The notes under the pieces: generated by a model
What the model saw: the letters and a program-made list of their open reading frames with translations, nothing else
Told to the model about the DNA's origin: nothing
Databases searched by the model: none
In this document: positions 3,709 through 19,943 of the stretch, in pieces
Numbering within the stretch: the first letter of the stretch is position 1
Layout: each line of letters begins with the position of its first letter
Made by a program: the position numbers and the translations under genes
From: a virus
Virus record (IMG/VR): IMGVR_UViG_3300030329_001912
Location: 1 to 45,699 of that record
Length of the DNA: 45,699 nt
Direction: 5' to 3' (one strand)

Positions 3709-4602
3709 TTAAATACTAAAAGCCTTTTCTAGTTCACCTTCAGAACCTAAAAGGGCATCAAATATCTTATCGTCAGGAGATTGTTCCACTACTGCGCCTC
3801 CCTTAGTAGCTAAGGAATTTGGAATTTCTTGTACTTCACGCATTTTTTCTCGCATCTCATCCCTTGTTTTTGTGGCTATTTTATTATCACGATTCTTACG
3901 ATTCATTAAATAGTAAATATCCTCAAGTTCGAGAGACTTAGATTTCGCAAAGTCTACAAACTCTGCCCACTCATCATCATTCAGCTCATGCTGTTGACGA
4001 AAAGCGGCTTCTTTAGCTAACCTGTGATTTTCAGAGCGTTGTCCTTGTAAAGCTTTTCCAAGTCTACGTTGGACAATGCCATCAATGGTTGCGCCAAGGA
4101 CTTTTGCAGAATCCGATTCGGGAGTTCCAAAAGCATCCTCAGCATCAAACACGAAATCTTCGGGAAGATTAAGTTGTTGTGCCATATTTTCAGGTGTCTG
4201 ACCACCACCCTCAAAATAATTTCTCACATGAGTAATTAAATTGGGGTCGTCTCGCATAGCATCTAGGATTGGCATATAAGGTTCAAGCTCTTGGAGCTTT
4301 CCATTTAACCTTTTAGCTTCTCTACTAGAATCGCTATACCTTTTTTGCATTGTATCCACATCAACCACTTCTGGATTTGTTTCAACATGCTCTTGACCTT
4401 CACTAGGGCTCGTAAGTGTGTTATCACTAATAGAATCCGAGGTTAGCTGCGAAGAATCGTCTAATATCCCACCGTTAACACTTTCATCTAAGGCTTCGAA
4501 AAAATTATCGCTTCCTCCAATTAATGCGTCAACTGCTTCAGGGTTAGGATTAGTATTCTCTTGTTCGGGGGCCATAACGGCGTTGCCTTGTTCTTGAGTC
4601 AT
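3709..4602 (-). CDS. Scaffolding-like head assembly protein
   Basis: 297 aa, strongly acidic and Asn/Gln/Ser-rich at the N-terminus (MTQEQGNAVMAPEQ). A helical middle follows (MQKRYSDSSREAKRLNGKLQ, then a YMPILDAMRDDPN segment of the kind common in scaffold proteins), and the C-terminus is charged (KTRDEMREKMREVQEIP). Position directly between portal and capsid genes, high charge, predicted helices and lack of aromatic beta segments all fit a phage scaffold, which assembles with the coat protein and is lost on maturation. I see no Ser-His-Asp protease signature, so a protease-scaffold fusion is unlikely. The start is supported by a GGAGAAAAATGT context. Confidence 0.7.
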   Translation of the reverse strand: MTQEQGNAVMAPEQENTNPNPEAVDALIGGSDNFFEALDESVNGGILDDSSQLTSDSISDNTLTSPSEGQEHVETNPEVVDVDTMQKRYSDSSREAKRLNGKLQELEPYMPILDAMRDDPNLITHVRNYFEGGGQTPENMAQQLNLPEDFVFDAEDAFGTPESDSAKVLGATIDGIVQRRLGKALQGQRSENHRLAKEAAFRQQHELNDDEWAEFVDFAKSKSLELEDIYYLMNRKNRDNKIATKTRDEMREKMREVQEIPNSLATKGGAVVEQSPDDKIFDALLGSEGELEKAFSI

Positions 4603-4660: not shown

Positions 4661-6913
4661 CTATTCTTTTTCATCCTTTTCTTTGTCTTGTTTTAAGTCA
4701 TTTCTCATTTCATCTCTTAGTCTTTCAAACTCAACTTTCAACATTCCTTTTAGTAATTTCTGTTGAGCTTGTGTATCTATAACGTCTTTTCTAATTTCGT
4801 TAGATGCTTGACCAACCTGCATCTTGATACCTGCTTGTACTAATTGACGCTCCAAAGTCTCAATAGTTCCATCTTTATCTTTAACGGCTTCTTCCATAGA
4901 TTGTAATTGACTTTGAAGTTGTGAGTACATTGATTTTCTTTCAACAATTCCTTCTTTATTTCTAATATCGGTTTCAGCTATCATCGCAATATCATCAATC
5001 AATCCAGCTTGGAACCATCTGAAATATTCTTCTAATAATGCCCATCTATTTACAGGCATTGTAGCTCCTGCTATTACTCTTACGTCAAATCTTGCAGTTG
5101 CATAATCTTTAAATTTACCAATCGCTTCTCCATAATCATTGTAAACTGGAATATTAATAGCAACTTCTTTTTCTTGGTCTGGAGTTTGACCTGCTTCAGG
5201 TTGTACAATTCTAAATACTTTTTCAATTGAATAATGTCTTTGAGCCATCATTTGGAAACATCTACCTAAATGTTCTAATGCAGGTTCTACAATACTACCC
5301 ATCCATGCTTTAAGTCTTCTTGTTCCAAATTCATCATTCGCAAGTAATCCTCTATAAGTCTCAGGCTGTTCTTGTGTAAATCCCATCATCGCAGAAGGAA
5401 CTCCACTAATATATTCTGCATCTGACTTACCTTCTTGAACTACAGAGTAAAATGCATTATTAATTGGAGCGGGAAGAACAGGAGTTGGAGCTGCAAATCC
5501 TTGACGATATTTCAATAAAGCCCCAGGTGAAGATGAATACTGTTCCCATTCTTCTTCTGGAACAGAGCCTTCTTCGTACATCCATCTTAGATTAGATGCT
5601 AGGTTTGCATTATGTAACATAATCTGATGAGCTTTATTAATCTCTTGTTGTTTACCAATCAAAGGAACAACTGCACTCATTGGATATGGTGTTCCGCTAT
5701 ACATATAAGAAATTGGAACAATAGGATAATCTTTAATACCGGGTATTGTATATTCATATAAGAATACTTCATCTCCAACTGTACAAGTTAATACAATTCT
5801 ATTTTCATAAAACTTTATTGCATCAACAATATTCTTTTTTGCATCACTATTCATTAATAATTGATAATCAGATTCACTCATTACTTGCTGAGTAATTGTA
5901 GTTGCAGCTTCTTGAGCTTCTGACATCAATTGGATTCTTTGTTCTTCTATTGCCTGAGCAGCCATCTTTTGAGCTTTTTCTAATTCTAACTGTGCTCTCT
6001 CAGGTATCATCTCTCCAGCTTCTACAGCTTGTTGTAATTGTAATTCTTTTTCGATTATTCCTACTTCAATCTCTTTCTGAAATTCTTCTATTTTTTCTTC
6101 TACTTGCCTTTGAATTAAATCTAATTCAGCAGGGCTTGGCTTTACTCTTATATATACATTACGATAAGGAAATTTCTTTTTAGAATATGTTTCATAATAT
6201 GCTACAATGTCATCATCTTCAGCATCAAGATTAACTCCCATAGTAATATCTTCTGGTTGAATCGTAAATGATTCTTCTGTATCTCTTTGAGAATAAGATA
6301 CTACTTCGTTACTACGAGCAACTTTTTTAATCTTAGCTGCATGCTCTGGTAACATATTCATTAAAGTAGAACGAGAAAGATTCTTTCTAATTGTTATAAA
6401 TGTAGCATCTCTAAATAAGAAATCTCTACTTGCAGGGTCTACATATACATCATAAGGGTCAACTCTTTTAAAGACCACTTCTCCTAATCCATTATCTTCA
6501 TCTCTATCTACATCTACTAGAAAATATCCAATACCTTTTGTAAGACTATCTAATACTACTTGACTATATAATGATTTACCATTTGATAAATACCAACAAT
6601 AATCTGCTATATCAGAATGAACTTGTGCAGCTTCTACATCATCACCAGTTGCTCCTACAGCTTTCCATCTTGGATTATTAGCCGTAACAAAGTATTTCAT
6701 AATCTCTACAATAGGAGTTACCCTATTAATAGTAAATGTTGGCATACCAGCTTCTTCTAAAGAATCAACCTCTGCTTTTGATAATTGTTCATTTAAATAA
6801 AAATCAAAACCTTTTTGACTAAGTGTTTGCCATCTTTGTCTATGACTATTATTTGCTTTCTCCCAAAGTTGTTTATTGGTTTGAGCTCTTTTCTTATTTG
6901 TCATTCTAGCCAT
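4661..6913 (-). CDS. Portal protein
   Basis: 750 aa, within the range of large podovirus (P22-like) portals. It has the usual features: a helical N-terminus, a core containing DSLTKGIGYFLVDVDRDEDN and DPYDVYVDPASRDFLFRDAT (the 'VDPASR' segment is common in P22-type portals), a long coiled coil around residues 260-345 (EEKIEEFQKEIEVGIIEKEL), then QQEINKAHQIMLHNANLASN. The C-terminal ~110 residues are highly charged and coiled (LQSQLQSMEEAVKDKDGTIE), like a barrel or crown extension. The dodecameric portal forms the DNA entry vertex and docks the terminase. The start shares one base with the stop-side neighbour, indicating translational coupling in the late operon. Confidence 0.88.
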   Translation of the reverse strand: MARMTNKKRAQTNKQLWEKANNSHRQRWQTLSQKGFDFYLNEQLSKAEVDSLEEAGMPTFTINRVTPIVEIMKYFVTANNPRWKAVGATGDDVEAAQVHSDIADYCWYLSNGKSLYSQVVLDSLTKGIGYFLVDVDRDEDNGLGEVVFKRVDPYDVYVDPASRDFLFRDATFITIRKNLSRSTLMNMLPEHAAKIKKVARSNEVVSYSQRDTEESFTIQPEDITMGVNLDAEDDDIVAYYETYSKKKFPYRNVYIRVKPSPAELDLIQRQVEEKIEEFQKEIEVGIIEKELQLQQAVEAGEMIPERAQLELEKAQKMAAQAIEEQRIQLMSEAQEAATTITQQVMSESDYQLLMNSDAKKNIVDAIKFYENRIVLTCTVGDEVFLYEYTIPGIKDYPIVPISYMYSGTPYPMSAVVPLIGKQQEINKAHQIMLHNANLASNLRWMYEEGSVPEEEWEQYSSSPGALLKYRQGFAAPTPVLPAPINNAFYSVVQEGKSDAEYISGVPSAMMGFTQEQPETYRGLLANDEFGTRRLKAWMGSIVEPALEHLGRCFQMMAQRHYSIEKVFRIVQPEAGQTPDQEKEVAINIPVYNDYGEAIGKFKDYATARFDVRVIAGATMPVNRWALLEEYFRWFQAGLIDDIAMIAETDIRNKEGIVERKSMYSQLQSQLQSMEEAVKDKDGTIETLERQLVQAGIKMQVGQASNEIRKDVIDTQAQQKLLKGMLKVEFERLRDEMRNDLKQDKEKDEKE

Positions 6914-14669: not shown

Positions 14670-14742
14670 TGCAGGGTGGAGCAGTGGTCAGCTCGTCAGG
14701 CTCATAACCTGAAGGTCGGAGGTTCGAATCCTCTCCCTGCGA
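14670..14742 (+). tRNA. Initiator-type tRNA-Met (anticodon CAT)
   Basis: All arms fold: acceptor TGCAGGG/CCCTGCG (first pair U-G), D-stem GAGC/GCTC, anticodon stem TCAGG/CCTGA with loop CTCATAA, and T-stem GGAGG/CCTCT with loop TTCGAAT; discriminator A at 14742. Bacterial initiator features are present: A11-U24 in the D-stem and a weak 1-72 pair. Overall similarity to bacterial fMet tRNA is strong (GGGTGGAGCAG...AGCTCGTC). The anticodon stem has A29-U41 instead of the first of the usual three G-C pairs. CCA is not encoded. It may supply initiator tRNA during the phage takeover of translation. Confidence 0.93.
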
Positions 14743-14746
14743 CAAA

Positions 14747-14870
14747 ATTGCTGTTAGTATATTCTAAGCATAGACGTATGTTGAAGCTGTGGCTCGCTGC
14801 AATACGAGGTTCGAATCCTCAACCTTAACCGATGTTGTAGGTAAATCGGGGCTGAAGTATTAACAGCAAT
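14747..14870 (+). ncRNA. Structured tRNA-like element, long closing stem
   Basis: ATTGCTGTTAGTAT (14747-14760) pairs with GTATTAACAGCAAT (14857-14870): 14 bp with two G-U pairs. Inside are a hairpin AGCATA/TATGTT (about 14768-14783), a T-arm-like hairpin GAGG-TTCGAAT-CCTC (14806-14820) and a stem CCGAT/ATCGG (14829-14849). The 15-base string GAGGTTCGAATCCTC also occurs in the adjacent tRNA. No normal acceptor, D or anticodon arm can be built, so it is not an ordinary tRNA. It could be a decayed tRNA captured in a larger RNA, or a functional tRNA mimic. Confidence 0.55.
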
Positions 14871-19165: not shown

Positions 19166-19320
19166 TGGGAGAAATAATTTCAAATAATATATTATTACCG
19201 CTAATGTATTTATTAGTGGATGTTGCTATTACACTAGGAATAATTGTATTATTCTTAATGGTAATAGAAAAAATCTTAGATAGTACAATCATAAAAACAA
19301 TAATGGAGAAAATAAGATGA
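19165..19320 (+). CDS. Small single-span membrane protein
   Basis: 51 aa. One hydrophobic segment (LLPLMYLLVDVAITLGIIVL, about residues 10-29, extending to about 34) is followed by a charged helix (EKILDSTIIKTIMEKIR). TAATG and ATGA overlaps with both neighbours support expression. It may be an early inner-membrane protein, such as a superinfection or membrane-anchoring factor; this is a guess from topology only. Confidence 0.6.
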   Translation: MGEIISNNILLPLMYLLVDVAITLGIIVLFLMVIEKILDSTIIKTIMEKIR

Positions 19321-19943
19321 GTAAAAACAAACCAAATGGAGTAGTTGTTTACGATGACAGCCTTACATCCATAACTGAAAATGTAAGAAAAGCTATTACA
19401 GCTAAACACAAAAAAGTTTCTGACATGGAAACTCCTCAACATTTTGTAAAAAAGAAAATGGGAATGGATTATTGTGAAATATCTTATATGAGAGAAATGG
19501 CTGAAAAAGAATATCCAGGCTGGAGTTGGACAATCATAAGCACAGAAGTATTAGGCTCTGAAGCATATGTAGTACATGGTAGATTAAAATGGTATGATGA
19601 AGGAGTGTGGAGAGAAGGTGATATGGTAGCTGCTCATAGAGTACAAAAAAAGAGAGGAACTGGAGAATTTGTAGACATTGGTAATGATGTTAAAGCATCA
19701 AATACAGACTGCTTAAAGAAAGCTTTGAATATGTATTTAAATATTGCTGATGATGTTTATAGAAATCAAGTAGAAGACTTAGAATTAAATGAAGAAAAGA
19801 AAGATGCCATACTTGAAATAGCTGGCCAATGTAGTAAGATGAGATTAGAAGAAATAAAAAAGTTAATTGATAATCATACAATAAATAATGCTAACTATAA
19901 TGCATCATACGCTAAATTACAAAGAGAGGTAGATTCAAAATGA
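19317..19943 (+). CDS. Rad52-like single-strand annealing protein
   Basis: 208 aa. The core (YPGWSWTIISTEVLGSEAYV, then VVHGRLKWYDEGVWREGDMV, then FVDIGNDVKASNTDCLKKAL) resembles phage Rad52/Sak-type annealases: a beta-sheet with a conserved aromatic pair, followed by a helix with 'xASNTDCLKKAL', similar to 'GAAETDALKRAL' of Rad52. Such proteins form rings that coat single strands and pair homologous DNA. The C-terminal ~70 residues are helical and probably interact with the exonuclease or SSB-like partner. Confidence is moderate because the N-terminal 40 residues and exact family cannot be checked here. Confidence 0.6.
   Translation: MSKNKPNGVVVYDDSLTSITENVRKAITAKHKKVSDMETPQHFVKKKMGMDYCEISYMREMAEKEYPGWSWTIISTEVLGSEAYVVHGRLKWYDEGVWREGDMVAAHRVQKKRGTGEFVDIGNDVKASNTDCLKKALNMYLNIADDVYRNQVEDLELNEEKKDAILEIAGQCSKMRLEEIKKLIDNHTINNANYNASYAKLQREVDSK

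Follow-up and report, generated by a model that had tools for sequence, protein, structure and literature searches.

What kind of RNA, if any, is encoded at positions 14747 to 14870 of a metagenomic virus record, directly downstream of a tRNA gene? The window analyzed here is an IMG/VR virus record in its full length (45,699 bases, 33% GC). Its genes include those for a terminase, a DnaB-like helicase, a ParB-like protein, a Cas4-like nuclease and a DUF932 protein, and judged by these genes, the virus is a tailed phage. A preliminary description of the locus had reported a 14-bp stem enclosing three hairpins, one of which repeats the 15-base T-arm of the neighboring tRNA, in an element that does not fold as a tRNA or tmRNA. 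We report below that these features are present and that homologues in other viruses reveal an arrangement of tRNA parts that the description had not recognized.

The element and the neighboring tRNA

The 14-bp outer stem (P1 in Table 1) is present as described, and the folding of the element beats that of 200 out of 200 dinucleotide shuffles (z = -3.5). Stems of 14 bp are not rare in the window, where 11 start/end combinations were found at about seven distinct places on the plus strand. What sets the observation apart from chance is the conservation of the element and not the stem or the repeated T-arm. Comparison of homologues bears out the count of three enclosed hairpins, although the window sequence, folded by itself at minimum energy, has a different interior. 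Homologues taken one by one each fold differently, and single-sequence minimum-energy folds are misleading for this element.

ARAGORN and Rfam detected only the neighboring tRNA, in agreement with the view that the element is neither a tRNA nor a tmRNA. A cloverleaf with acceptor and anticodon stems is absent from the element by both tools; for tmRNA (a tRNA-like domain plus a tag open reading frame), ARAGORN made no call and Rfam gave no tmRNA match to the window element. No other Rfam family was matched by the element, and promoter and terminator scans around it returned nothing usefully above chance.

The neighbor was identified by ARAGORN as tRNA-Met(CAT). Its earlier designation as an initiator fits the body of the molecule, which is initiator-like, but not its G1-C72 pair or its anticodon stem, which lacks the GGG/CCC pairs; no CCA is encoded. 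The sequence GAGGTTCGAATCCTC is present both in this tRNA (14719-14733) and in the T-arm of the element, as had been reported, and the repeat common to the two spans 20 nt at 90% identity. The repeat is mostly universal T-arm sequence: because 11 of the 15 shared T-arm bases are those of the standard tRNA T-arm, GGTTCGAATCC, the match is weak evidence of a link between the element and its neighbor.

Table 1. Coordinates of the element, its parts and the adjoining tRNA in the window
Feature	Coordinates	Strand	Basis or remark
Neighboring tRNA-Met(CAT), initiator-like, probably outside the element	14670..14743	+	Missing beside most relatives' elements
Whole element, type A with inserted hairpin	14747..14870	+	Six-sequence alignment A2
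P1 5' strand, outer 14-bp stem	14747..14760	+	Pairs with 14857-14870, including two G-U pairs; sequence varies among viruses, pairing kept
P1b 5' strand UUC, partner GAA 14854-14856	14762..14764	+	Fold and alignment
P2 hairpin AGCAUA-GACG-UAUGUU	14767..14782	+	Insertion in type A only, not type B
P3 5' strand, closes core, partner 14850-14853	14785..14788	+	Both-sided changes in 4 of 4 pairs
Conserved core, 65 model positions, covariance model R1	14785..14853	+	85.5 bits in the window
Conserved 17-nt strand NUGGNUCRYURYAAYNC 5' of T-arm	14789..14805	+	Consensus unpaired; nearly invariant (n = 11)
T-arm, 4-bp stem and 7-nt loop UUCGANU	14806..14820	+	T-loop near-invariant
Linker AACCUUAA, at the acceptor-stem place of tRNA/YrlA	14821..14828	+	Identical in 11 of 11 cores
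D-arm-like hairpin, 5-bp stem, loop with invariant GGUA	14829..14849	+	Both-sided changes in 4 of 5 pairs
P3 3' strand	14850..14853	+	Homologue alignment
P1b 3' strand GAA	14854..14856	+	Alignment
P1 3' strand	14857..14870	+	Fold and alignment

Homologues and the conserved fold

Exact and degenerate pattern scans of viral contigs recovered 12 other full copies of the element, which, with that of the window, fall into two types. In type A (the window, L002, L004, L005, L033, L035 and L036), an additional hairpin, P2, is inserted between P1 and P3, whereas in type B (L009 to L013 and L032), P1 continues directly into P3. The covariance model of the core, R1, scored 80 to 91 bits in these 13 virus records, with one copy per record; the next best score in these loci was 18 bits, apart from 27.9 bits for a cut-off copy, L014. 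That partial copy lies at a contig end in a MAG labeled Euryarchaeota and was the one real match among 17 found by the degenerate pattern in GTDB contigs, the other 16 being chance matches by their surrounding sequence.

Elsewhere, R1 scores did not exceed 31 bits in 369 gammaproteobacterial genomes; the weaker matches in that sample run over the T-arm and the bases preceding it, and the six that were checked are tRNA-Gln genes. A covariance search of samples of about 800 Pseudomonadota and Bacteroidota genomes and six of another phylum found no copy at an E value of 1e-9 (R1 E values are rough). Annotated phages and plasmids gave no nucleotide match to the element, phage matches being weak or to the tRNA part. 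The viral scans also returned three chance matches (L008, L031 and L034), and L003 was set aside as a weak T-arm match. The latter, a GC-rich viral contig, has at 1400-1447 a CGAGGTTCGAATCCTCAACC T-arm and a possible long variable region, with no ARAGORN tRNA call.

Core identity between viruses ranges from 67 to 99%, whereas the immediate flanks are about 50% identical, the level of shuffled sequence, which argues that the RNA itself is under selection. Several carrier viruses are only distantly related to the window virus, and L002 and L004 have just the element in common; in L006, a close relative of the window, no element was found in the sequence examined. Every member comes from a metagenomic virus record, and most of these records are fragments. 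Judged by these comparisons, the element is a real, conserved member of an RNA family. The family apparently consists of undescribed small structured phage RNAs known from metagenomic records alone, and we found no earlier description of such a phage RNA in the literature searched, coverage of which was partial.

Applied to 11 distinct cores, RNAalifold found exactly three helices unaided: P3 (4 bp), the T-arm (4 bp with a 7-nt loop) and the D-arm-like hairpin (5 bp with the invariant GGUA). Nine of the 13 core pairs have changed on both sides, 96.5% of cells are paired across the 11 cores (100% in the D-arm-like hairpin), and the covariation score of 0.66 compares with 0.22 after shuffling and at most 0.10 after sliding. 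The first pair of the T-arm is A-U, G-C or U-A, depending on the virus. In the six sequences of alignment A2, both-sided changes affect 15 of 36 pairs, with a covariation score of 0.42 (0.22 shuffled, at most 0.11 slid). The sequence of P1 varies strongly between viruses, and its pairing is retained in both type A and type B, so the alignment of homologues that had been proposed as a check shows the outer stem kept in relatives despite sequence change. P2 has one both-sided change, in L002, and L004 is divergent there. Two type B loci have a further stem outside P1, AAAGGGA/TCCCTTT in L012 (approximately 4215-4330) and GGAATC/GATTCC in L032 (approximately 865-975).

The near-invariant UUCGANU and the invariant GGUA together constitute an elbow signature at the sequence level. 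Read along the strand, the order closing stem, T-arm, D-arm, closing stem is that of a tRNA that has been circularly permuted, with the opening in its anticodon stem. The preliminary description thus had the three hairpins but overlooked the D-arm-like identity of one of them and the circularly permuted order. On sequence comparison, we take the family, its structure, the permuted order, the lack of an acceptor and the independence from a tRNA to be established.

The last of these points follows from the relatives. No tRNA was found in the DNA fetched around the 12 other full copies, some pieces of which were short, and this makes it unlikely that the element is a processing signal for the tRNA, as had been suggested, or a copy of it. 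The partial copy L014 does have a tRNA (6011-6085) about five bases upstream, with the body of the window tRNA and the anticodon GAU instead of CAU; the T-stem there (TAGG) is a different one, which shows that the T-arm sharing seen in the window is no rule. The T-stem of the element is GAGG, AAGG or TAGG in different viruses, whatever the neighbor, and origin from the adjacent tRNA is therefore not supported. What survives of the idea of a rebuilt tRNA relic is a new RNA with tRNA parts, conserved and covarying.

An origin in another tRNA is suggested by the 20 nt before the T-loop. Compared with 112 tRNAs of many isotypes, this stretch was closest, or tied closest, to tRNA-Gln in six of seven elements, and CCAAGCGGUAA of the tRNA-Gln D-arm is present in the D-like arm of L002 and L004 but not in other members. 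The lead of tRNA-Gln over the next isotype was one or two bases at most, and because such margins are small, descent from tRNA-Gln is only a hint, suggestive at best.

Genomic context and possible mechanisms

The window and L005 carry the element in an early-gene block, and in L012 and L032 two genes precede it, one of them related to the window gene at 19317-19940. In one clade (L009, L010 and L011), it is the last feature of a replication operon, at the 3' end, and faces a convergent gene. These three copies have no same-strand gene downstream and so should act in trans, and such a position at an operon end speaks against a riboswitch in a 5' leader. Beside the element, no partner gene is conserved, and the two proteins flanking it have no relatives in annotated phages. 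From the genomic context, we consider a trans-acting RNA likely, but neither a cis leader nor a signal for tRNA processing.

In L002 (4751-5425) and in the flanks of L033 and L036, stretches of several hundred bases next to the element appear to be noncoding; L033 and L036 also have a second T-loop-like stretch, GGGAGTTCGATT, some 100 nt downstream of the element. Upstream of the element in L004, a sigma-70-like TTGACT match follows a GGGGGG/CCCCCC hairpin, possibly a terminator.

The elbow of tRNA is built by the contacts G18-Psi55 and G19-C56. By the same rules, the T-loop (UUCGANU) of the element would dock with the GG of the D-like loop to build an elbow. We infer that a stable RNA is cut from an early or replication-gene transcript, has its ends sealed by P1 and acts in trans. 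Its elbow would be bound by a tRNA-handling factor such as a nuclease, the ribosome or an enzyme that modifies or processes tRNA; the elbow of tRNA is bound by many factors, including RNase P, RNase Z, TruB, Dus and the ribosome (PMC4810234). The factor might be either occupied, the RNA being a decoy, or tethered, as PNPase is tethered by the tRNA-like end of YrlA. Having neither an acceptor stem nor a CCA end, the element should not be aminoacylated.

The element probably imitates a tRNA and thereby docks onto tRNA-handling machinery, and we hold with moderate confidence that a trans-acting tRNA-elbow mimic bound by a tRNA-handling factor is the best explanation. The decoy for tRNA enzymes proposed in the preliminary description is possible and comes close to it. 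More tentatively, and with distinctly less confidence, we propose that this acceptor-less permuted elbow RNA is a minimal trans docking module, an RNA inhibitor or tether made of the elbow only, that captures a host tRNA-handling enzyme or an anti-phage tRNA nuclease during infection, independently of Ro60.

The element might instead stabilize or process mRNA, either as a nuclease-resistant block or as a substrate through which a tRNA-processing enzyme cuts the phage transcript. Polycistronic units contain it or end with it, in the window it lies directly 3' of a tRNA, and elbow mimicry can recruit RNase P (PMC4810234). However, such a structure would not obviously need the invariant 17-nt strand and the AACCUUAA linker, there is no acceptor helix for measuring a cleavage site, and most relatives have no adjoining tRNA; we regard this reading as unlikely. 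A cis-acting 5' leader or riboswitch, whose tRNA-like fold would control the next gene as in yjdF, could be expected where a gene starts shortly downstream, as it does in the window, L004, L012 and L032, and tRNA-like leaders are able to raise translation (PMC9142559). The downstream genes vary between viruses, though, and with the convergent genes described above, they make a leader quite improbable. A point against the elbow mimic itself is that RAGGUU (14806-14826 region) can pair instead with the AACCUU of the linker in 95.5% of cells, so that some of the conservation may be due to a second fold. In a two-state switch, RAGGUU would alternate between the T-arm and the invariant AACCUU, making the elbow conditional; the alternative helix appears in several minimum-energy folds. 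Against it, the only covarying pair in the RAGGUU strand (22-36) supports the T-arm, whereas the alternative pair 22-42 has no both-sided change and is lost in L033 and L036, and we consider a switch very unlikely.

The permuted arm order is shared with YrlA, a bacterial Y RNA, and phages have been reported or suspected to carry Y RNAs (PMC7765460, PMC12282133). The element could accordingly be a divergent true YrlA, with an outer stem that binds host Ro60/Rsr and a tRNA-like end that binds PNPase. The YrlA model RF02553, which detected YrlA in a gammaproteobacterial sample, had no match at E values up to 10 in 11 virus records, and Rfam scans of the element loci matched neither YrlA nor yjdF. 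Conversely, R1 scored only about 10 to 11 bits on YrlA loci, over little beyond the T-arm. A search for a Ro60/TROVE gene, positive in its Deinobacterium control, found none in the 11 virus records, which are mostly fragments. The acceptor hairpin is missing, and the outer-stem sequence is not conserved. With no acceptor-like hairpin, no YrlA match and no TROVE gene in these records, the element probably works like a Y RNA, and we judge a true YrlA to be rather improbable.

If the elbow mimic is real, DNA phages carry a conserved mimic of the elbow alone, outside Rfam, and this would show that they employ tRNA decoys or tethers in the form of free-standing RNAs. Being small and strict in its core, the RNA would then be a clean means of finding out which proteins recognize nothing but the elbow, and whether such RNAs help phages against tRNA-targeting defenses or serve to redirect host RNA decay.

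Comparison with known systems

Like the element, YrlA (RF02553; PDB 6CU1) is a small RNA in which a long stem joins the 5' and 3' ends, and in the RF02553-aligned gammaproteobacterial YrlA, the order is likewise closing stem, T-arm, D-arm, stem. The published account of YrlA is that of a circularly permuted tRNA (PMC11472068); it is modified by tRNA enzymes and tethers PNPase to Rsr, the Ro60 orthologue, its tRNA-like part being the PNPase-binding part (PMC8394870). Between T-arm and D-arm, however, YrlA has a 6-bp acceptor-like hairpin where the element has the invariant 8-nt linker; its outer-stem sequence is conserved, while that of the element is free; and it lacks the conserved 17-nt strand added before the T-arm of the element. 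The yjdF riboswitch is also a non-tRNA RNA with a D-loop/T-loop elbow (PMC9142559), but it keeps the unpermuted tRNA order and occurs in mRNA leaders, whereas the element is permuted and not bound to one downstream gene.

The element shares a T-arm with tRNA, which differs from it in having an acceptor stem and an anticodon stem-loop in unpermuted order. As in permuted tRNA genes, the 3' half precedes the 5' half in the sequence. Processing of permuted tRNA genes yields ordinary tRNAs that have acceptor stems, whereas the element has no acceptor strands. The stable RNAs C and D of T4 are small stable non-tRNA RNAs located in the T4 tRNA cluster, by the phage tRNAs, and we claim no relation between them and the element. 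Mimicry of tRNA is well known from RNA viruses and YrlA.
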